Below, in pieces: positions 49,557 through 63,694 of a DNA stretch of 64,000 nucleotides (position 1 is the stretch's first letter; every line of letters starts with the position of its first letter). Origin of the DNA: Paraflavitalea pollutisoli (lineage in GTDB: Bacteria; Bacteroidota; Bacteroidia; Chitinophagales; Chitinophagaceae); the NCBI RefSeq assembly GCF_029360705.1, contig NZ_JARKMX010000008.1, positions 2,596,202 to 2,660,201 on the forward strand, written 5' to 3'. A program made the translations under genes and the position numbers. Below the pieces are notes generated by a model. It searched no databases. It was not told the DNA's origin and was given only the letters and a program-made list of their open reading frames with translations.

Positions 49557-49570
49557 CTGATTAAAATCAG
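49557..49570 (+). promoter_or_regulatory. FNR-like palindrome upstream of the 49627 gene
   Basis: CTGAT-taaa-ATCAG, perfectly palindromic. Its centre is 52.5 bp upstream of TAGTTTTG (49616-49623), an exact TAnnTTTG element. The same layout precedes ccoI, ccoS and the universal stress gene. Confidence 0.7.
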
Positions 49571-49626
49571 GGACTGGGGATGCGCAGGTCATGTAAGCCG
49601 GGAAAAAGGAGGGGTAGTTTTGGGGT

Positions 49627-50016
49627 ATGACACTTCATATCCACCAGGAGCGGCTGATCAGCGATATCCAACAAGAGTTCAATGACTGCTACCCTTTTTT
49701 AAAGATTGAACTGTTTGGTACTCCGTTGAAATACCAGCATACGGCGCCATTGGGTAGTAAATTACCGCGTCAATTGCCGTTAAAATCATTCGCCCAACAA
49801 GTGCCCGAAGGCAAGATCCAGGTGGAGGAAACGATGAGTGTACATCAACTGGAAGAATTGTTTCAGGCGGTGTTTGGTCTCAACCTGCAGGTATTCCGCA
49901 AGAGCGGCAACCTGTGGCTGGAAACGACGGTGACCGATAGCTGGACACTGAAGCAGCAGAATGAATATGGCCGGGAGCTGGAAGAAGTGCGCATGGCGGG
50001 CGGACGGGGGCGCTAA
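49627..50016 (+). CDS. Conserved hypothetical, likely microaerobic regulon
   Basis: Encodes 129 residues, soluble, with alpha/beta pattern: an N-terminal helix plus strands (ISDIQQEFNDCYPFLKIELFG), then EETMSVHQLEELFQAVFGLNLQVFRKSGNLWLETT. No family recognised with confidence. The -7 element lies only 3 bp before its ATG, which implies a leaderless or near-leaderless transcript. It is convergent with the hybrid regulator gene (stops overlap by 4 bp), and its FNR-like site links it to respiration genes. Confidence 0.75.
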   Translation: MTLHIHQERLISDIQQEFNDCYPFLKIELFGTPLKYQHTAPLGSKLPRQLPLKSFAQQVPEGKIQVEETMSVHQLEELFQAVFGLNLQVFRKSGNLWLETTVTDSWTLKQQNEYGRELEEVRMAGGRGR

Positions 50017-51071
50017 TACAGTAAGTTCTTCAACTTCTCCATATCGGCAATACTGATCTTGCCGTCTTTGATCGCGATGAGCTTCTCTGCTTTGAAGTCG
50101 CTGAGTGTACGGATCAGTGATTCGGTGGCCGTACCTACATAATGCGCAATGTCTTCGCGGGATATATTGATGGCCGCTTTTTCGCCATTTTCTTTGTTGA
50201 ATTTGAGGTGGATATCTATCAATGCCTTTGCTACCCGCTTACGCAATGATCCATAAGCCAAGCTCAGCAAACGTTCTTCTTTGTCCTGCACATTCTGAGC
50301 GATGAGCTTGATGAAGCGGCTGGCGATATTGATATCGTTGTACACCGATTGCAGGAATTCTTCTTTCGGGATCTGTACCACTTCTGCTTCTTCCAGTACC
50401 TCTGCCGTATCCTCATACGATTTATTCTCCAGCAAGGGCAGATAGCCAATAAAATCACCTACGGCATAGAGATTCGTGATGTATTCCTTACCATCCTCAT
50501 GCTGCCGCACCGCCTTCACCTTGCCACTCTTCAGGTAAAACAGGTATTTGGGGCGCTTGCCTTCCGCATACAGCGTAGTTTTCTTCGCCAGGTCGAGGGT
50601 TTCGTAGTTGTCGAGCTGCATATTGATCAGTCCGCTGCTGCTGAGGTCGGTGATCATGGCGGAGGCGCCTTTCTCATCGGAAGTATATTTCCGCTGCAGC
50701 ACATCCGACTTCTTCAGCCTGATCTCGATGGCATTGAGCAATTCGATATCATCGAAAGGTTTGGTGATATAGTCATCGGCGCCCATTTCCATGCCTTTGC
50801 GGAAATCGCCCCGTTCGGTTTTGGCAGTCAGGAAGATAAAGGGAATATGTTCTGTATCGGCATTTTTACGCAGGAGGTGCAACACGCCGTACCCATCGAG
50901 TTCGGGCATCATGATGTCGCAAACGATGAGGTCGGGCTTTTCGCGCATGGCCGTCTCCACCCCTCTTTTACCGTTGGGCGCCGTGAGTGTACGATACCCT
51001 GCGAGGGATAAGATCTCGGCAATATTCTCTCTGATATCGTCATGGTCGTCTATGATCAGCAGGGTATACAT
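50013..51071 (-). CDS. Response regulator-Crp/Fnr hybrid transcription factor
   Basis: Encodes 352 residues from the ATG at 51071 (frame open to 51260 but noncoding-like). Order: CheY-type receiver (1-120) with phospho-acceptor Asp52 (VCDIMMP), cNMP-binding-type beta-roll (about 150-260), dimer helix and a Crp-type HTH (INISREDIAHYVGTATESLIRTLSDFKAE), whose recognition helix keeps the Glu and Arg that read TGA/TCA in Crp and FNR. It is divergent from ccoI across a 147-bp region containing an FNR-like site. A receiver fused to a Crp module suggests control by a histidine kinase rather than by Fe-S chemistry; the PAS kinase at 60463 is a candidate. Confidence 0.9.
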   Translation of the reverse strand: MYTLLIIDDHDDIRENIAEILSLAGYRTLTAPNGKRGVETAMREKPDLIVCDIMMPELDGYGVLHLLRKNADTEHIPFIFLTAKTERGDFRKGMEMGADDYITKPFDDIELLNAIEIRLKKSDVLQRKYTSDEKGASAMITDLSSSGLINMQLDNYETLDLAKKTTLYAEGKRPKYLFYLKSGKVKAVRQHEDGKEYITNLYAVGDFIGYLPLLENKSYEDTAEVLEEAEVVQIPKEEFLQSVYNDINIASRFIKLIAQNVQDKEERLLSLAYGSLRKRVAKALIDIHLKFNKENGEKAAINISREDIAHYVGTATESLIRTLSDFKAEKLIAIKDGKISIADMEKLKNLLY

Positions 51072-51131
51072 GGGCGATCTGTTTGTTTTCGTGCACAATA
51101 GTAATGACTTTCTGGAATAAACTGCGCTGTT

Positions 51132-51145
51132 TTGATGAGAATCAG
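51132..51145 (+). promoter_or_regulatory. FNR-like palindrome upstream of ccoI
   Basis: TTGAT-gaga-ATCAG, 9 of 10 matches to TTGAT-N4-ATCAA, between the divergent hybrid regulator and ccoI genes. Its centre is 51.5 bp upstream of TACTTTAG (51190-51197), one mismatch from TAnnTTTG. Confidence 0.7.
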
Positions 51146-51218
51146 CCTTTGTGCTGATGTAGGTCACCATGCCGCAACGCCCTGGCCGGTACTTTAGCTC
51201 GTCTATTTTATCGTTTGT

Positions 51219-53615
51219 ATGGCTACATCTACCCAAGACCAGGCGTTGACCTGCGCCCATTGTGGCGAGGATTGTCCGGATAACAAGATCCGGCTGGAGT
51301 CGGCCGTATTTTGTTGCAGCGGCTGCCAGACCGTGTATCAGTTATTGAACCAGGTAGGTCTCTGCGACTATTACCAGCTCAATCAACAACCGGGATCGAG
51401 CCAGCGCATACCGGTGCGCAAGGATAAATTCTCCTTTCTCGACGATGCCGGCATTGCGCAACAACTTGTCAGCTTTCAGAACGACACGCAAACACGGGTC
51501 AGTTTTTATCTGCCCCATATACATTGCAGCAGCTGCCTGTACCTGCTGGAAAACCTGCGTAAAATGCAGGACGGCATCTTATCTTCCCGCGTTGATTTTA
51601 CCCGCAAAGAGGTCACTATAGCATTCGATCACCGGCGTGTATCGTTGCGCCGTGTGGCAGAATTGCTGACAGCAACGGGCTATGAACCTTATATCAGCTT
51701 ATCCTCCATGAAGGGCGTGAAGCCGGGGGTAGACCGGTCGCTGATCTACCGGCTGGGCATAGCAGGTTTTTGCTTTGCCAATATCATGCTGATGAGCTTT
51801 CCCGAATACCTGGGCCTGGAACGTGCCGAGCGCTCCCTGCAAGGCATGTTTCGCCTGCTGAACTTCGTACTGGCGCTCCCCGTATTCTTCTATAGCGCCT
51901 TTCCCTTTTTTGAGTCGGGCTGGAAGGGACTGCGGCACCGCTTCCTCAATATCGATGCCCCCATTGCGCTGGCCGTGCTCATCACTTTTGGGCGCAGTGT
52001 GTATGAGGTGATCTCAGGTACAGGCGCCGGTTATTTCGATTCGATGTCGGGCATTGTATTTTTTATGCTGGCGGGCAAGGTGATGCAAGACAAGACCTAC
52101 CGGCAACTGTCCTTCGACCGGGATTATACGTCCTGGTTCCCGGTAGCCGTGTCTGTAATTAAAGACGAAGTGGAAACGCCGGTAGCCCTGCCGGATATCA
52201 AGGCGGGCGACACCTTACTCATACACCATGGAGAACTGATACCTGCCGATGGCATCCTGACGCGTGGGCAAGGATTGATCGACTATAGTTTCGTGACGGG
52301 CGAATCGGCGCCAGTGGTTCGTGAGATGGGCGAGCTGGTATATGCGGGTGGCCGTCAGCAAGGCGCCAATATGGAATTACTCGTTACGCGGGAAGTGGCC
52401 CAAAGCTACCTGACGCAGCTGTGGAACCGTGAGGCTCAGCACACCAAAACAGATAAGGACAAAGATTCTTTCGTACACCTGTTGAGTCAATATTTTACCT
52501 GGGTGGTGTTTGGCATCGCCGCCGTGACCGCTACCTTCTGGGCATTCAAAGACCCATCGGTGATCTGGAATGCCGTGACGGCCATCCTGATCGTGGCCTG
52601 CCCTTGTGCCTTGCTGCTGTCGGGCACCTTCACCAATGGCAATATCCTGCGCATACTGGGTCGCAACCGTTTTTACCTGCGGGATGCACAGGCCATCGAA
52701 GACATTGCCGACATCAACCATATTGTATTTGACAAGACGGGCACGCTGACAGCGGCCCAGGAAATGGAGATACATTTTGAAGGGGCTTCCCTCACTGCCC
52801 ACCAGGAAATGCTGGTGAGTATACTGGCCTCGCAAAGTCAACACCCACTCACCCGATCACTGGCAGCACAACTGCCGCGTAAGGCGGGATTGGAAGTAAC
52901 GCAGTTTCGCGAACTGACCGGCCGTGGCATAGAAGGTTATATAGAGGGGGTGCACCTGCGGCTGGGTTCGCGGGCATTTGCCGGCAATGGCAGCAATCAA
53001 TTGCTGGGTGGCAGCCGGGTGTATGTCACCTTCGATGGGCGGCTGGCGGGCTCTTACGTGTTTACCCACCATTACCGCGCAGGCATTCAACCACTGATCG
53101 ATCAATTGCGATCTAGGTATTCTCTGTCGCTGCTGAGTGGCGACAATAGCAGCGAGGAAAGCAACCTGCGCAATATGCTGGGCCCGTATGCCGACCTGCG
53201 CTTTCAGCAGCAACCACCAGACAAACTACACTATATCGAGGAACTGCAAACCCGCCGTAAGCGGGTGATGATGATCGGTGACGGCCTCAATGACGCGGGC
53301 GCCTTGCAGCAAAGTGATGTGGGCATTGCGCTGGCAGAGAATACCAATCATTTTACACCGGCGAGTGATGCGATCCTCGAGGCGCGTCAACTGCCTTTGC
53401 TGAACCGCTTCATCAGGCTGTGCCGCGCCAACCGCCGGATCATTCTGGCGAGCTTTTGCCTGTCGATTCTTTACAATGTGATCGGAGTCTTCTTTGCGGT
53501 GCAGGGACATCTATCGCCCATGATCGCAGCCATCCTGATGCCATCAAGCAGTTTGAGCATATTGCTGATCACGTATGGCAGCAGTCAGTTGGCGGCGCGG
53601 AGGCTGAAGTTGTGA
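51219..53615 (+). CDS. ccoI: CcoI/FixI copper-translocating P-type ATPase
   Basis: Encodes 798 residues. The N-terminus has a zinc-ribbon-like CAHCGEDCPDNKI...CCSGCQTVY (about residues 11-40), then an HMA domain with HCSSC (about 102). The membrane region contains the CPC motif (IVACPCALLLSG, about 463-473), then the phosphorylation motif DKTGTLT (about 507-513) and GDGLNDAGAL (about 686). CcoI supplies copper for cytochrome cbb3 oxidase assembly. It leads the ccoI-ccoS-ccoNO-ccoQ-ccoP unit, though a second promoter seems to precede ccoS. Confidence 0.95.
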   Translation: MATSTQDQALTCAHCGEDCPDNKIRLESAVFCCSGCQTVYQLLNQVGLCDYYQLNQQPGSSQRIPVRKDKFSFLDDAGIAQQLVSFQNDTQTRVSFYLPHIHCSSCLYLLENLRKMQDGILSSRVDFTRKEVTIAFDHRRVSLRRVAELLTATGYEPYISLSSMKGVKPGVDRSLIYRLGIAGFCFANIMLMSFPEYLGLERAERSLQGMFRLLNFVLALPVFFYSAFPFFESGWKGLRHRFLNIDAPIALAVLITFGRSVYEVISGTGAGYFDSMSGIVFFMLAGKVMQDKTYRQLSFDRDYTSWFPVAVSVIKDEVETPVALPDIKAGDTLLIHHGELIPADGILTRGQGLIDYSFVTGESAPVVREMGELVYAGGRQQGANMELLVTREVAQSYLTQLWNREAQHTKTDKDKDSFVHLLSQYFTWVVFGIAAVTATFWAFKDPSVIWNAVTAILIVACPCALLLSGTFTNGNILRILGRNRFYLRDAQAIEDIADINHIVFDKTGTLTAAQEMEIHFEGASLTAHQEMLVSILASQSQHPLTRSLAAQLPRKAGLEVTQFRELTGRGIEGYIEGVHLRLGSRAFAGNGSNQLLGGSRVYVTFDGRLAGSYVFTHHYRAGIQPLIDQLRSRYSLSLLSGDNSSEESNLRNMLGPYADLRFQQQPPDKLHYIEELQTRRKRVMMIGDGLNDAGALQQSDVGIALAENTNHFTPASDAILEARQLPLLNRFIRLCRANRRIILASFCLSILYNVIGVFFAVQGHLSPMIAAILMPSSSLSILLITYGSSQLAARRLKL

Positions 53616-53716
53616 AGAAAGGCAACAAGGCAGCAAGGCATCGAGGCAACTGAGGAAAGGCAGGAAGAGAAGGCAACGAGGCAACAAGGCACAAAGGCAA
53701 CGAGGGGGAAAAGGCA
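53616..53716. repeat. AGGCA repeat array B
   Basis: About 11 degenerate AGGCA-type units of 8-9 bp directly after the ccoI stop codon, running into the terminator at 53709. Same family as arrays at 40195, 59166 and 62956. Confidence 0.75.
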
Positions 53717-53745
53717 GGCTCTTTCGGGCCCGCCTTTTCTTTTTT
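53709..53745 (+). terminator. Intrinsic terminator of ccoI
   Basis: AAAAGGC/GCCTTTT stem extended by GGC/GCC across one A/C mismatch, then C and T6. The left arm overlaps the last unit of repeat array B. Confidence 0.75.
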
Positions 53746-53779
53746 AATGCGGGCAACTGTTAAAGCACATGACATACAC

Positions 53780-53793
53780 CTGACAAATATCAG
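53780..53793 (+). promoter_or_regulatory. FNR-like palindrome upstream of ccoS
   Basis: CTGAC-aaat-ATCAG. Its centre is 51.5 bp upstream of TACTTTTG (53838-53845), an exact TAnnTTTG. This is the promoter expected for ccoS-ccoNO-ccoQ-ccoP, since ccoI has its own terminator. Confidence 0.65.
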
Positions 53794-53865
53794 TTTCTAC
53801 CATAAGGTAAGTCATCCTCATTCCTTTGGTCGCGGGATACTTTTGAGGCGTCAACCTTCTTACTT

Positions 53866-54018
53866 ATGACAGTGATCATTCTCTTACTAGGTGTCAGTAT
53901 TTCCGTGTCGGCCATCTTCCTGGCAGGCTTTATCTGGAGTGTCCGCCACAAACAATACGACGACGAGTTTTCACCACCTGTACGCATCTTATTTGATGAC
54001 AAACCCAAAGAAGTATAA
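53866..54018 (+). CDS. ccoS: CcoS cytochrome cbb3 oxidase maturation protein
   Basis: Encodes 50 residues. One membrane helix near the N-terminus (VIILLLGVSISVSAIFLAGFIWSV) is followed by the typical RHKQYDDEFSPPVRILFDD motif, in which the QYDD(x)2-P-RIL pattern is diagnostic of CcoS. It is needed for assembly of cbb3 oxidase with copper and haem. It starts 21 bp after the -7 element and ends 3 bp before ccoNO. Confidence 0.9.
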   Translation: MTVIILLLGVSISVSAIFLAGFIWSVRHKQYDDEFSPPVRILFDDKPKEV

Positions 54019-54021
54019 ATC

Positions 54022-56211
54022 ATGATCGCGACTGAAAACATGGCTGTTCCCGAACAGCGAACTACTGCCCCTGCCCTACCGGTAGACAAATTCTCTTATG
54101 ACAACACAACCGTTAAATGGTTTGCCTATGCAGTGCTGTTCTGGAGCATTGTGGGCATGCTGGCAGGACTCTGGGCATCTATTTCTCTTTTCTACCCCGG
54201 CATCAACCTGGGATTACCTGCCACCACCTTTGGCCGTATGCGTCCGGTACATACCAATGCCGTGATCTTCGCCTTTGTCGGCAACGGTATCTTCATGGGT
54301 GTATATTATTCTTTACAAAGGCTGTGTAAGGCCCGGATGTTCAGCGATACGCTGAGCAAGATCCATTTCTGGGGCTGGCAGCTGATCATCGTAGCCGGCG
54401 CGCTGACCTTATGGGCCGGCTTTACGACCGGTAAAGAATATGCCGAACTGGAATGGCCCATCGACATCGCGATCACCCTGGTATGGGTACTCTTTGGCAT
54501 CAACATCTTCGGTACGATCATCAAACGCCGCGAAAGTCACCTGTACGTTGCGATCTGGTTCTATATCGCTACCTGGGTTACCGTCGCGATGCTGCACATC
54601 GTCAACTCTTTCGAATTACCCGTTTCTATCCTGAAAAGTTATAGCTGGTATGCCGGTGTACAGGATGCGCTGGTGCAATGGTGGTATGGCCACAATGCGG
54701 TGGCTTTCTTCCTCACCACGCCCTACCTTGGACTGATGTATTATTTTCTGCCGAAGGCGGCTAACCGGCCCGTCTATTCTTACCGGCTTTCGATCATTCA
54801 CTTCTGGGCCCTGATCTTTATCTATATCTGGGCGGGACCTCACCACCTGTTGTATACCTCCCTGCCCGACTGGGCACAATCACTCGGGGTAGTATTCTCC
54901 GTGATGCTGATCGCGCCCAGCTGGGGTGGCATGCTGAACGGATTGTTCACGCTCCGTGGCGCCTGGGACAAGGTACGCGAAGAACCTGTGCTGAAGTTCC
55001 TGGTGGTAGCCATCACCTGTTACGGTATGGCCACTTTTGAAGGTCCCATGCTGAGCCTGAAGAATGTCAATGCCATCTCGCACTTCACCGACTGGACGAT
55101 TGCGCACGTACACGTGGGCGCCCTGGGCTGGAATGGTTTCTTGACCTTCGGCGTGTTGTACTGGATCATCCCGAAGATGTGGAATACACCGCTCTACTCG
55201 AAAAAACTGGCGGGCACCCACTTCTGGATCGGCACCATCGGTATCGTACTGTACGCAATCCCTCTGTACTGGGCCGGCTTTGCGCAAAGCATGATGTGGA
55301 AGAACTTTACCGAAGAAGGTCAGTTGAAGTTTCAGTTCCTGGAGACCGTTACCCACGTGATCCCCCTATACATCACCCGCAGCATCGGTGGGGCACTGTA
55401 TATCGCCGGTGCATTCATCATGGTATACAACCTGCGTAAGACCATTAAGCAGGGTTCTTTCATCGCCAATGAGGCCGCAGAAGCAGCGCCCCTGGCCAAA
55501 GAAGTGGTTACCCACGGTAAACAACACTGGCATCGCTGGATTGAAAAACGCCCCATGCAAATGCTTGTATTCAGCCTGATCGCCGTCGCCATCGGTGGCA
55601 TCCTGGAGATGGTGCCCACCTTCCTTGTGAAGTCGAATGTGCCCTCGCTGAGTAGTGTAAAACCGTATACGCCGCTGGAACTGCATGGCCGCGACATCTA
55701 TATCCGCGAAGGCTGTTATACCTGCCATTCGCAAATGGTACGTCCTTTCCGGGATGAGGTAGCGCGGTATGGCGAATACTCCAAGGCTGGTGAGTTTGTA
55801 TACGATCACCCCTTTCAGTGGGGTTCCAAACGCACCGGTCCCGATCTGGCACGCCTCGGCGGCAAGTATCCCGACAGCTGGCACTACAACCACATGCTCG
55901 ACCCGCAGAGTATGTCGCCTGGCTCGATCATGCCTACCTATGGCTGGCTGCTCGACGACAAGATCGATACGGCCCGTACGGCTCCGATGATCCGTGCGAT
56001 GCAGACACTCGGGGTGCCTTATCCCGCAGGCTATGATCAGCAAGCCAACAGAGACCTGCTGCTGCAGGCCGACGAGATCAAACTGAGCCTGGCCGGTGAC
56101 AAGATCAAAACCAACAACCAGCAGGAGATCATCGCGCTGATCGCTTACCTGCAACGGCTGGGCAAAGACATCAAGGCTATGCCGAAGGAAGCAACCGCCG
56201 GCAATGAATAA
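54022..56211 (+). CDS. ccoNO: Fused cbb3 cytochrome oxidase subunits I and II (CcoN-CcoO)
   Basis: Encodes 729 residues. The CcoN half (1-475) has about 12 membrane helices and the haem and copper ligand histidines in RPVHTNAV, WWYGHNAVAFF, AGPHHLLYTSLP and HFTDWTIAHVHVGALGWNG. The CcoO half carries CYTCH (565-569) and the axial Met in SPGSIMPTYGW. The NO fusion is the usual Bacteroidota form. It is the high-affinity terminal oxidase catalytic core. ATG at 54022 is 3 bp from the ccoS stop. Confidence 0.96.
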   Translation: MIATENMAVPEQRTTAPALPVDKFSYDNTTVKWFAYAVLFWSIVGMLAGLWASISLFYPGINLGLPATTFGRMRPVHTNAVIFAFVGNGIFMGVYYSLQRLCKARMFSDTLSKIHFWGWQLIIVAGALTLWAGFTTGKEYAELEWPIDIAITLVWVLFGINIFGTIIKRRESHLYVAIWFYIATWVTVAMLHIVNSFELPVSILKSYSWYAGVQDALVQWWYGHNAVAFFLTTPYLGLMYYFLPKAANRPVYSYRLSIIHFWALIFIYIWAGPHHLLYTSLPDWAQSLGVVFSVMLIAPSWGGMLNGLFTLRGAWDKVREEPVLKFLVVAITCYGMATFEGPMLSLKNVNAISHFTDWTIAHVHVGALGWNGFLTFGVLYWIIPKMWNTPLYSKKLAGTHFWIGTIGIVLYAIPLYWAGFAQSMMWKNFTEEGQLKFQFLETVTHVIPLYITRSIGGALYIAGAFIMVYNLRKTIKQGSFIANEAAEAAPLAKEVVTHGKQHWHRWIEKRPMQMLVFSLIAVAIGGILEMVPTFLVKSNVPSLSSVKPYTPLELHGRDIYIREGCYTCHSQMVRPFRDEVARYGEYSKAGEFVYDHPFQWGSKRTGPDLARLGGKYPDSWHYNHMLDPQSMSPGSIMPTYGWLLDDKIDTARTAPMIRAMQTLGVPYPAGYDQQANRDLLLQADEIKLSLAGDKIKTNNQQEIIALIAYLQRLGKDIKAMPKEATAGNE

Positions 56212-59761: not shown

Positions 59762-60466
59762 ATGTGGCCCATCTTTACCAGTGGTGTTGTTTTGGGTCTC
59801 TTCAGCAGCCTGCATTGTGTTGGCATGTGCGGGCCGCTGGTCATGGCTTTACCGCTTGCCGGGCAATCAACCCGGCGGCGGCTTTTATCCATGACCTTGT
59901 ACCATGGTGGCCGGCTACTCACCTACTCGCTGCTTGGACTTGCCTTTGGACTGGCAGGCCGTCGCCTGCAACTGGCGGGGTGGCAACAGGGTTTCTCCAT
60001 CGGTCTGGGCATCCTGCTGCTGGCAGCCTGCCTGTTCTCCCTGGTACATCATCAACTGGCCTCCTTCGCACCTATTGCTGCTTTTCAACGCCTGGTCACG
60101 CAATTGAACATACGCCTGTGGCAGGCACCTAAACGTTATGGATTCCTGTTGCTGGGTATGGCCAATGGCCTGCTGCCCTGCGGCCTCGTGTACCTGGCAG
60201 TAGCAGCAGCACTCACCACCGGACATGTCGGCATGAGCAGCCTGTTTATGGCTTGCTTTGGCCTGGGTACCCTGCCCGCCCTGTTGGCCGTCGGCTACGG
60301 TGGTATACGACTTAACCTTCATTGGCGCACGCGCTTCCGGAAAGCCGTGCCTGTTGTAATGATGACGATGGGTATTTTATTAATCCTTCGCGGGCTGGAC
60401 CTCAACATTCCTTTTATCAGTCCCCCCTTGCCGCAGGTGCCTACCAACAGCGCTTCCTGCCACTAG
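59762..60466 (+). CDS. Sulfite exporter TauE/SafE-family protein (COG2836)
   Basis: Encodes 234 residues from the ATG at 59762; a start at 59717 would overlap ccoH. Six membrane helices, with the metal-like motif SLHCVGMCGPLVMALP at the N-terminus and LGMANGLLPCGLVYLAVAAALTTG in the middle. COG2836 proteins near cbb3 genes are thought to move or bind copper/thiols for oxidase assembly. It is 1 bp from ccoH. The stop overlaps that of the convergent kinase gene by 4 bp. Confidence 0.88.
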   Translation: MWPIFTSGVVLGLFSSLHCVGMCGPLVMALPLAGQSTRRRLLSMTLYHGGRLLTYSLLGLAFGLAGRRLQLAGWQQGFSIGLGILLLAACLFSLVHHQLASFAPIAAFQRLVTQLNIRLWQAPKRYGFLLLGMANGLLPCGLVYLAVAAALTTGHVGMSSLFMACFGLGTLPALLAVGYGGIRLNLHWRTRFRKAVPVVMMTMGILLILRGLDLNIPFISPPLPQVPTNSASCH

Positions 60467-62019
60467 AGCGCTAATGCTTTCAAGCCTACTGTAACGGTGG
60501 TGCCCCTGTCGAGCTCACTTTGCAGCGCGATGTCACCTTCCAGCAATTCTACATACCGCTTTACGATGTGCAGGCCGAGTCCTGTGCCTTCGATATTGGT
60601 TACATTGCGCGCGCGGAAGAACGTGGTGAACAAATGCTGCTGGTCTTCCTCGGCGATGCCCATGCCCTGGTCTTTGACGGAGAGGGTCAGTTGATCGCCT
60701 TCGATGTGCACGGTGAGTACAATTGTGGCACCTTCACCAGAGAACTTGATGGCGTTGCTGATGAGGTTGATGAGTATGTTGCGCAGCAGGCGGTTGTCGG
60801 TGGTGAATTCGTTGGGGCCTTCGCAGATCGTTTGTATCTGCTGTCCGGGTTTGAGGATGAGGTTCATCTCATCCACCACCTCGGCCAGGAACTCGCGCAC
60901 GGCGAAGCGGACGGGATCGGCTTTGATACGCCCTTCTTCGAGCTTGCCCAGGGAGAGGAAATCTTCGAGTAGTACGTTGAGGTGCTTGACGGAATCACGG
61001 ATACGGCGGATATGTTTATCGCGCTTCTCCTGGTCTTCTGTCTGTGTGTATTTGCCGATCAGCGCAGCTGACGACAATACGGTGCTGAGCGGTGTGCGGA
61101 ACTCGTGCGAGGCCATGGAGACAAAGCGGGACTTGATCTCATTCAACTCCTTCTCTTTGTTGAGGGCTTCACTCAGTTCTCCTTGTGATCGCTCCAGTTC
61201 CTGCAGGGCTTCGCGGAGGATGAGGGTACGGTCTTCTACCTTGGTTTCCAGTTCAGCGTTGAGCTTGCGCATATCGGCCGTGATCTGTTCGAGTTGTGCT
61301 TTCTGCTCGAGCAATTCCGTTTCTGCTTGCTTGCGCGCGGTGATGTCGACGATAAAGGCGATCACGAAGAACTGATCGCTCTGCTGGTAGTGACTGAGAC
61401 TGACCTCTACGGGAAATTCGCGCCCGCTGCGTGTTCTGGCAAAGAGGTCACGGCCATGGCCCATGGAGCGATTGGAGGGTTTCTTGTAGAAGCCTTCCCG
61501 GTCTTTGTTGTGCCTGCCATGGAAACGGGCGGGTATGAGGGTTTCGATCGGCTTGCCCAGCAGCTCTTCCTTATCATATTCAAACAAAGCGGTGGCGGCG
61601 GGATTGATGAGCACGATCTCGCCTTTGCTGTTGGTGAGCACGATGCCTTCGGTGGCATGTTCGAACAGGGCATTGACCTGCCGCTCGTCGGACTCGATGG
61701 AGCGGTATAATTTCTTGACGTACAGGACTGCCAGGGTGGTGATGATCACGATCACGCTGCTGAAAAGGTGCTGCATCATGATCTGCTGCGTGTTCATACT
61801 TTCGTGGGGATAGAAGAACGAAAGGATGATGAGCACGATGGCTACCATACCCGCGATGCGGGTATAGCGGTCATTTTTGAGGAATACGGTAAGCAGTACA
61901 GCTATGACGAGACCGCTGTCGTAAAAGCTAACCCCAGGGTTGAGGTATTGCAGTACGGCCGTGGTGATCGTAACTATCATGCAAAACAGCAATACATTCA
62001 GCGGCTTTTCAGTAAACAT
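60463..62019 (-). CDS. PAS-domain sensor histidine kinase
   Basis: Encodes 518 residues: about five membrane helices (1-125), a PAS domain (about 135-250; NALFEHATEGIVLTNSKGEIVLINPAATALF and GREFPVEVSLSHY), a coiled-coil (255-300), HisKA with SMASHEFRTPLST (about 315) and HATPase (INLISNAIKFSGEGA, DQGMGIAEEDQQHLFTTFFRA, GTGLGLHIVKRYVEL). It is a hybrid-free kinase with no receiver. Its location in the cbb3 locus makes the receiver-Crp hybrid at 50013 a candidate partner (inference). Confidence 0.92.
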   Translation of the reverse strand: MFTEKPLNVLLFCMIVTITTAVLQYLNPGVSFYDSGLVIAVLLTVFLKNDRYTRIAGMVAIVLIILSFFYPHESMNTQQIMMQHLFSSVIVIITTLAVLYVKKLYRSIESDERQVNALFEHATEGIVLTNSKGEIVLINPAATALFEYDKEELLGKPIETLIPARFHGRHNKDREGFYKKPSNRSMGHGRDLFARTRSGREFPVEVSLSHYQQSDQFFVIAFIVDITARKQAETELLEQKAQLEQITADMRKLNAELETKVEDRTLILREALQELERSQGELSEALNKEKELNEIKSRFVSMASHEFRTPLSTVLSSAALIGKYTQTEDQEKRDKHIRRIRDSVKHLNVLLEDFLSLGKLEEGRIKADPVRFAVREFLAEVVDEMNLILKPGQQIQTICEGPNEFTTDNRLLRNILINLISNAIKFSGEGATIVLTVHIEGDQLTLSVKDQGMGIAEEDQQHLFTTFFRARNVTNIEGTGLGLHIVKRYVELLEGDIALQSELDRGTTVTVGLKALAL

Positions 62020-62346: not shown

Positions 62347-62426
62347 GCAACGTATGTATTTAATAAATATCTCTAGGGCCTGATGGCCGGTGCAACAAAA
62401 ATAGCCGGGTGGCTGGTGGCACGGTT

Positions 62427-62440
62427 ATGACATTCATCAA
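62427..62440 (+). promoter_or_regulatory. FNR-like palindrome between 62346 and 62534 genes
   Basis: ATGAC-attc-ATCAA (two mismatches from TTGAT-N4-ATCAA). Its centre is 51.5 bp upstream of TACAAGTG (62485-62492), a weak -7 element for the 62534 gene, and 30.5 bp from TATTTTTG for the divergent gene. Confidence 0.45.
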
Positions 62441-62533
62441 GGCGATTTATGATCGTGCTCATATTCATCAATCGGTAGCCACACTACAAGTGGTTGTTTA
62501 TCCGTTTCTTTTAAAGACTTAAAGCCTTCCGAC

Positions 62534-63081: not shown

Positions 63082-63564
63082 CTAATTATCCGCCGCCTCG
63101 GGTCCTTTGCTACCCTTGTTGTTCTCAAAGCGGCCCGACTTTTCGTGCAGGCGAATACGGAATACCACTCCTTTTATAGTATTGAGGTCTGTAGGGGGAA
63201 AAGGCCATTGTGGCGACAGGTGGGTCATCTGGCTACTGAAAAAAGGCAACTCCCGCTCTACAAGTTTCTTCAAAGCTGTTTTGCGCGGCACCTCTTCCAT
63301 CAATTCTTCGTAGGTACCCCAGGCAATCACGCTCTGCCAGTTGGCCATATCATGAAAACGGTCTACTTCAAAGCATACGGCAGGATTCTTACGCATCATC
63401 TCCACTTTCAAGCCTTCATCGGCCCGGCAATAAATGTATTCGCCATCGTAGGCATAACTGATGGGCACCACGTAGGTCTTATTATCTGCATGACAGCCTA
63501 TTCTTCCTACCAGTTGCGTACTAAGCAGTGCCTCTATTTCCTGTACCTGTAGATATCCGAGCAT
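63082..63564 (-). CDS. Pyridoxamine 5'-phosphate oxidase-like FMN-binding protein
   Basis: Encodes 160 residues. Split-barrel pattern: EIEALLSTQLVGRIGCHADNKTYVVPISYAYDGEYIYCRADEGLKVEMMRKNPAVCFEVDRFHDMANWQSVIAWGTYEEL, typical of the PNPOx/nitroimidazole-resistance (NimA-like) clade that binds FMN. Substrate unknown. It is divergent from the universal stress gene (131-bp gap). Confidence 0.88.
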   Translation of the reverse strand: MLGYLQVQEIEALLSTQLVGRIGCHADNKTYVVPISYAYDGEYIYCRADEGLKVEMMRKNPAVCFEVDRFHDMANWQSVIAWGTYEELMEEVPRKTALKKLVERELPFFSSQMTHLSPQWPFPPTDLNTIKGVVFRIRLHEKSGRFENNKGSKGPEAADN

Positions 63565-63611: not shown

Positions 63612-63625
63612 TTAACAGGAATCAG
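63612..63625 (+). promoter_or_regulatory. FNR-like palindrome upstream of the universal stress gene
   Basis: TTAAC-agga-ATCAG, one mismatch from the yTGAy-N4-ATCAG form at ccoS. Its centre is 52.5 bp upstream of TACATTTG (63671-63678), an exact TAnnTTTG. An overlapping hairpin ATCAGGC/GCCTGAT follows at 63621-63638. Confidence 0.6.
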
Positions 63626-63694
63626 GCGTAAGCCTGATGTTTCTCAGTGCAATTGTCGTTCCAGCCTGCTTACATTTGTATAAAATCAGCCGTC

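Follow-up and report, generated by a model that had tools for sequence, protein, structure and literature searches.

A paired-site promoter layout before cbb3 oxidase and stress-protein genes of Paraflavitalea pollutisoli, and its candidate receiver-CRP regulator

The window analysed here, a stretch of 64,000 nucleotides of the Paraflavitalea pollutisoli genome taken as a whole, holds the genes of a cbb3-type oxidase, a gene for a small protein (g129), a gene for a response regulator with a CRP-type output (receiver-CRP) and, further along, a gene for a PAS histidine kinase that resembles FixL. An original prediction from the same DNA had described three palindromes in this region, each at a near-constant distance upstream of a -7 box of the form TAnnTTTG, and had proposed FNR-like control. 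We consider it probable that these palindromes are the upstream members of predicted site pairs for a protein of the CRP/FNR superfamily, with the two members 22 bp (two helical turns) apart, and we extend the same degree of confidence to the full reading that includes the receiver-CRP regulator and the FixL-like kinase. The three promoters and the genes around them are as follows.

49557..49570, plus strand: site 1 of the g129 promoter, CTGATTAAAATCAG; position weight matrix (PWM) score 32.9
49579..49592, plus strand: site 2 of the g129 promoter, with the downstream half GTCAT alone kept
49615..49622, plus strand: -7 box of the g129 promoter, TAGTTTTG, first T at 49615
49627..50016, plus strand: g129, a small protein with no Pfam or NCBIfam match at E 0.001
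50013..51071, minus strand: receiver-CRP response regulator (Response_reg, cNMP_binding and HTH_Crp_2), the proposed binder
51132..51145, plus strand: site 1 of the ccoI promoter, TTGATGAGAATCAG; PWM score 32.3
51154..51167, plus strand: site 2 of the ccoI promoter, CTGATGTAGGTCAC, both halves present
51190..51197, plus strand: -7 box of the ccoI promoter, TACTTTAG, one mismatch to TAnnTTTG
51219..53615, plus strand: ccoI, a P-type ATPase (Pfam)
53780..53793, plus strand: site 1 of the ccoS-ccoNO promoter, CTGACAAATATCAG; PWM score 44.2
53802..53815, plus strand: site 2 of the ccoS-ccoNO promoter, ATAAGGTAAGTCAT, downstream half kept
53838..53845, plus strand: -7 box of the ccoS-ccoNO promoter, TACTTTTG, first T at 53838
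53866..54018, plus strand: ccoS (FixS) (Pfam)
54022..56211, plus strand: fused ccoN-ccoO (Pfam)

All three palindromes and their -7 boxes are present where the original prediction had placed them, and Pfam confirms ccoI, ccoS and ccoN-ccoO as the cbb3 genes behind two of the sites. The spacing from palindrome centre to the first T of the -7 box, given earlier as 51.5-52.5 bp, proves to be tighter and is exactly 51.5 bp in all three promoters, so that a palindromic TGA-N6-TCA stands at a fixed distance from the promoter core, as in the CRP/FNR superfamily. The layout had, however, been described with one site; the spacing of palindrome and box stands, but a second full or half site, again TGA-N6-TCA and lying 22 bp downstream of the first, had been overlooked. 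Similarly, the set of three promoters is confirmed but incomplete, as the window holds two more of the kind (62462, minus strand, and 63612, plus strand).

The combination of motif and spacing exceeds what control spacings yield. In the organism's own genome (8.76 Mb) the pattern TGAYN4ATCA, 31 to 60 nucleotides, TAnnTTTG has 16 matches, 5 of them at gap 45, which counted from ...ATCA is the same as gap 44 counted from ...ATCAG. Two of these five belong to the originally described promoters and two (L015, L016) precede genes that by eye resemble universal stress protein (Usp) genes; the remaining one (L021) lies inside a long open reading frame (ORF) and was taken as chance rather than as a promoter of the regulon. 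Across 244 genomes of the family, the stricter pattern CTGAYN4RTCAG-gap-TAnnTTTG gave 11, 55, 8 and 2 rows at gaps 43, 44, 45 and 46 (76 rows in 60 genomes), against 48 rows in total, about 4 per gap, for the twelve control gaps 47-58; both the gap-44 and the control-gap rows contain sister-genome repeats and are not fully independent. Nine of the 76 rows are without a locus, and the genes behind those nine do not enter the gene counts below. These spacing controls replaced a control on backward-read sequence, which was dropped as an unfair null. The scan for motif plus box that the original prediction had proposed was thus run in the own genome and in its family and gives a peak, and the claim that motif and spacing are non-random is borne out. 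A PWM trained on 39 tandem promoters from other genomes agrees, with 5 matches scoring at least 15 in the window and none in 400 kb of evenly chosen own-genome background (one match there at score 12). Reversed sequence (518 kb) gave no match at score 12. Single-strand scans of 20 two-base-block shuffles of the window reached 15.8 once and stayed below 10 in the other 19.

Several lines of evidence point to the protein encoded at 50013-51071, together with its paralogue, as the likely binder in this genome. Pfam matches above cut-off to PF00027, PF13545 and PF00325 place it in the CRP/FNR superfamily, its receiver domain (PF00072, E 4.5e-29) makes it a two-component response regulator, and the phospho-accepting Asp and the conserved Lys are present in 22/22 receiver-CRP rows. 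The CRP part of the window protein has no cysteine, and the 21 relatives have 0 to 3, so that the ligands of an iron-sulfur (Fe-S) FNR are missing; the FNR likeness proposed earlier therefore extends to DNA recognition and not to Fe-S sensing. At E 1e-60, 174 of the 244 family genomes yielded a receiver-CRP protein, and the strict motif occurs in 44 of these 174 as against 1 of the 70 in which no receiver-CRP was found (one-sided Fisher p 9e-7, uncorrected for kinship). Divided by regulator, gap-44 rows occur in 36/145 genomes with receiver-CRP only, 8/29 with both receiver-CRP and an FNR type linked to cco genes, 0/34 with the cco-linked FNR type only, and 1/36 in which neither was found. Genomes with control-gap rows have a receiver-CRP in 36 of 45 cases (p 0.10).

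The comparison was extended to the cco loci themselves; of 80 named loci, 50 were chosen for a receiver-CRP search and 49 entered it (L057 is missing). Tandem sites scored above the 99th percentile of the local null in 22/39 genomes with receiver-CRP, in 4/10 without a found receiver-CRP and at 8/30 further loci not judged for it. Each locus was credited with the highest-scoring of as many as three upstream stretches, the null is made of single stretches, and one locus (L022) shares promoters with training genome G162. Certain of these results weigh against the role given to the receiver-CRP protein. The strict pattern has no match in 130 of the 174 receiver-CRP genomes; the genomes are related, and the counts are not independent; some regulator absences may be misses, since only the best first-look candidates were scored (the best 8 per genome for receiver-CRP, up to 11 for the cco-linked FNR type and up to 42 for the named loci). 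Moreover, four loci in genomes without a found receiver-CRP (L026, L060, L062, L092) have a variant tandem, ATGAT-N4-ATCAT or CTGAC-N4-GTCAT. The geometry is accordingly independent of the receiver, and the idea that the receiver domain gave rise to the tandem was rejected.

These variant tandems also bear on the possibility that an Fe-S FNR-type protein without a receiver is the real binder and that the receiver-CRP gene is linked for other reasons. FNR-like proteins near ccoI at several named loci carry, by eye, FNR-like cysteines and a recognition helix, GTATES-IRLLSEF, nearly the same as GTATESLIRTLSDF; indeed the helices of cco-linked FNR-like proteins and of many receiver-CRP proteins are almost identical. 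The own genome likewise encodes one FNR-like protein with clustered cysteines (L196), a further point on that side, but its helix is different, and a search at E 1e-50 found nothing of the cco-linked FNR type in this genome. The absence of the strict motif from all FNR-only genomes argues in the same direction, as does the lack of association of the FNR type with the motif (8/45 motif genomes vs 55/199 others, p 0.19). We therefore regard an Fe-S binder in place of the receiver-CRP protein as improbable. Read most simply, the layout is open to regulators of either kind, and the one that uses it in this genome is the receiver-CRP.

Further features of the receiver-CRP proteins concern their helix, their genes and their history. 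The sequence ETVSR is present in the recognition helix at L038, L042, L046, L049, L052, L058, L059 and L080 (Pedobacter, Mucilaginibacter and others), and at loci of this type the outer base is T or G, not C or A, in three readable ccoI sites; these three Ser-type promoters hint weakly that the outer base goes with the helix type (Ile or Ser). Autoregulation of the receiver-CRP gene is a similarly weak suggestion, the divergent strand having a one-mismatch -7 box only, at another distance. Receiver-CRP matches in the Chitinophagaceae fall into groups at about 57-100% and about 48-56% identity to the window protein, some genomes having both, which suggests that the two groups may be old paralogues.

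The second site can be examined in the 55 aligned gap-44 rows, with positions numbered from the first base of CTGAY. At position 33 a TCA is found in 42/55 (the next best position has 5), and at position 24 a TGA in 21/55 (next best 2), so that site 2 is often kept as a half; both halves are present in 15/55, a small fraction that counts against a general site pair, and among the three originally described promoters the complete site is found before ccoI alone, with g129 and ccoS keeping the downstream half. A tandem scan made without the -7 requirement, with the spacer free from 4 to 14, covered 395 genomes of the phylum, about 98 of them from the window's class, and returned 105 rows, 50 in that class and 55 in others. 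Spacer 9 accounts for 34/50 of the class rows (next best, spacer 10, 5/50), and in the other classes spacer 9 has 4/55 and spacer 11 has 18/55, 8 of the 18 being one recurrent sequence. From the 39 class rows with spacer 9 or 10, 37 were taken into a count of -7 boxes; 12/37 have a box, with one mismatch or none, 23 bp beyond site 2 (no other offset has more than 2; exact box in 3), and 25/37 have none at that offset. The spacing peak is thus recovered both from palindrome plus -7 box and from tandems alone, and the layout is found from either end.

In Flavobacterium psychrophilum the sigma-A box TAnnTTTG occupies -12 to -5 (PMC9723704). With the -7 box so placed, the site centres fall at about -63.5 and -41.5. 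For CRP and FNR of E. coli, the latter is where class II sites classically lie.

A core-promoter role for the conserved GTCA at positions 32-35, with the upstream palindrome as the sole binding site and no second dimer, would fit the far better conservation of the TCA half than of the TGA half, the scarcity of complete second sites among the originally described promoters, and the position of the TCA half near -37, beside the expected -33 element. Against this, position 24 is the strongest TGA peak of the spacer, full tandems found without regard to a -7 box peak at spacer 9, and the -33 box reported for Bacteroides is TTTG at variable spacing and not GTCA at a fixed one (PMC7366714). We regard a single binding site as unlikely, slightly more so than an Fe-S binder, and retain the paired sites.

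In seven family promoters the ATG of an ORF of at least 100 codons lies exactly 4 nt after the -7 box, as against at most two at any other distance up to 39, which agrees with the placement of the box at -12 to -5 and is expected if messages are leaderless with A at +1. This suggests leaderless messages within the regulon; g129 (window 49615-49629) is one of the seven, and the A of its ATG at 49627 would be +1. As a separate observation, there is a possible second architecture in which a CTGAY-N4-RTCAG-like palindrome is followed at a gap of about 55 by TAnnTTTG, with ATGACA direct repeats between (own-genome L012, C10:362068-362143; family rows such as G094:C1:1752407, G036:C23:503643 and G117:C63:18388). 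The own-genome element lies before a hemA-like gene, named by eye, and is divergent from a ferrochelatase-like gene.

The gene g129 had been predicted to belong to the regulon, and its distribution supports this. Homologues (E 1e-8) occur in 97/244 family genomes, 92 of which also have a receiver-CRP protein. For 30 matches with loci among these 97 genomes, the window's own included, a tandem promoter (PWM score at least 12, in or around the 220 bp upstream) is present in 20 and absent in 10; 21 of the 30 lie within 300 bp of one of the 26 listed receiver-CRP matches, all 21 tail to tail. The predicted fold of g129 (AlphaFold, mean predicted local distance difference test score 85) finds no counterpart in the PDB at E 0.001; ubiquitin chains come nearest, at 0.02, with a root-mean-square deviation of about 15.

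The remainder of the window holds the other cco genes, the kinase, and the two promoters absent from the original prediction.

from 56419: ccoP (Pfam)
from 57748: ccoG (Pfam)
from 59323: ccoH (Pfam)
60463..62019, minus strand: PAS histidine kinase, PAS resembling FixL and DosP, with His (residue 170) and Arg (190) positions conserved
62396..62403, minus strand: -7 box of the kinase promoter, TATTTTTG, gap 45
62427..62440, minus strand: site 2 of the kinase promoter, TTGATGAATGTCAT, 22 bp from site 1
62449..62462, minus strand: site 1 of the promoter before the kinase and a short ORF, ATGAGCACGATCAT; PWM score 22.8
63612..63647, plus strand: tandem sites of the Usp-like promoter, TTAACAGGAATCAG and CTGATGTTTCTCAG; PWM score 20.6
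63671..63678, plus strand: -7 box of the Usp-like promoter, TACATTTG; the gene behind extends past the window end

The layout therefore also stands before the FixL-like kinase and a Usp-like gene, and elsewhere before hemN, Hsp20 and other genes. The Usp-like gene at the window end matches NCBIfam UspE at E 2e-9, under its curated cut-off. Its tandem sits between that gene and a minus-strand gene resembling, by eye, a PNPOx-type flavoprotein (63082-63564), and could serve both directions; the minus strand is without a good -7 box. Behind the family gap-44 sites, BLAST against the window proteins identified 12 ccoNO, 2 ccoI, 2 g129 and 1 PNPOx-like gene, and the kinase lies behind a gap-45 site; in G160 the gene is another P-type ATPase with a weak ccoI match, and hemN, Usp-like, Hsp20 and other genes behind family sites were named by eye. 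Two more stretches of the own genome, both on contig C15 and both picked since a pattern scan had matched there, contain nine promoters (38.5 kb) and three (16 kb) by PWM. The longer encodes a second pair of PAS kinase and receiver-CRP, a Usp-like protein (Pfam Usp at cut-off), Hsp20, PPDK, a cation ATPase and a phosphorylase-like protein, and the shorter an acetyl-CoA hydrolase and hemN; additional Usp-like genes there were named by eye from their N-termini. Dense in tandem promoters and in stress and fermentation genes, the longer stretch with its kinase/receiver-CRP pair (L262, L263; C15:138001-176500) resembles a dormancy island.

The His and Arg positions in the kinase align with residues of FixL, where the His is the heme ligand. 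The best PDB matches of the window's PAS domain are FixL (2cmn), tied with 10jx (E 2.6e-9), followed by more FixL and DosP, and the position of the heme-ligand His is His in 21/21 readable kinases. The kinase gene adjoins the receiver-CRP gene on the same strand in 20/21 named cco loci, and in the exception (L022), as in the window, the kinase gene stands at the opposite end of the cco cluster. As judged from its sequence the PAS domain likely binds heme. Weighing against this, the match to 10jx, not known to us as a heme protein, is as good as that to FixL, and the FixL Arg position is Arg in 12/21 kinases (the window's included) and Leu, Met, Phe or Ile in 9/21.

The layout, how it is conserved, the genes behind it and its co-occurrence with the regulator are observed; from them we infer a mechanism with binding, phosphorylation, heme, oxygen control and cooperativity as its elements. 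At low oxygen the FixL-like kinase (60463-62019) would phosphorylate the receiver-CRP protein, which would then occupy a class I-like and a class II-like site on one face of the DNA as a pair of neighbouring dimers and bring in sigma-A RNA polymerase. The targets would be the cbb3 oxidase, its copper and heme supply, and stress-protein and other survival genes, and the kinase, itself a target, would provide positive feedback. That the paired sites repress, or respond to redox, nitric oxide or another cue in place of oxygen, is quite unlikely: sequence reveals neither the sign nor the signal, and the Arg position varies as described, but sites near -63.5 and -41.5 are placed as activation would require, the genes concerned are those of low-oxygen regulons (in part from general knowledge), and cbb3 oxidase is strongly raised in F. 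psychrophilum under oxygen limitation (PMC9723704). The layout, then, probably lets an oxygen-responsive two-component switch turn on the oxidase and stress-survival genes together.

The tests made place the system in the CRP/FNR superfamily and among the two-component systems; it is neither an Fe-S FNR system nor a relative of DosR. FixL-FixJ-FixK controls fixNOQP in rhizobia, and the likeness lies in a FixL-resembling PAS kinase, a receiver and a CRP/FNR-type DNA binder before cbb3 genes. In contrast to that cascade, the receiver and CRP-type output of the window are one protein with no FixJ step, and the site is usually CTGAY-N4-RTCAG, paired, at a Bacteroidia sigma-A promoter. The FNR/Anr regulons of E. 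coli and Pseudomonas recognize TGA-N6-TCA at a site near -41.5 and have cbb3, hemN and stress proteins as targets, all of which the present system shares; it differs in a regulator without Fe-S cysteines, in a second site or half-site usually 22 bp away, and in an outer base that is C or A in 51/62 site-1 half-sites of 31 listed promoters (the ccoS and ccoNO rows being partly the same promoter). DosR targets include Usp and Hsp20. With DosR the system shares a response regulator, closely packed sites and such targets, a likeness of working and not of kinship, whereas the output of DosR is of the NarL family with an unrelated DNA motif and that of the window's regulator is of Crp type. For DevR/DosR of Mycobacterium tuberculosis, packed primary and secondary sites, a proximal site overlapping the -35 element and cooperative binding are described (PMC3029386).

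A search of the literature, with most subscription journals outside its scope and sources available in part, found no description of the layout or of a receiver-CRP regulon, which is weak evidence of absence. In an anammox-reactor study (PMC8510549), CRP/FNR homologues of Ignavibacteria, Flavobacteriales and Saprospiraceae were assigned to carbon sensing by MalR.

A broader proposal, which we hold tentatively and would not yet favor over its negation, is that of a hypoxia and dormancy regulon across the class Bacteroidia, in which an older FNR promoter layout came under the control of a single protein that fuses a FixJ-like receiver to a FixK-like activator. Site, helix and spacing would have been kept and the Fe-S sensor exchanged for a heme kinase, and the two dimers 22 bp apart at -63.5 and -41.5 would form a cooperative unit that works as DosR does without being related to it. 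The outcome of the analysis is a testable regulon with a 66-bp element, a candidate sensor-regulator pair and a target list across a large bacterial class. If this is right, a lineage can swap its oxygen sensor and yet keep its promoter architecture, and the fixed geometry of the element would make it useful for work on how activators act at TAnnTTTG promoters, the unusual sigma-A type of this phylum.

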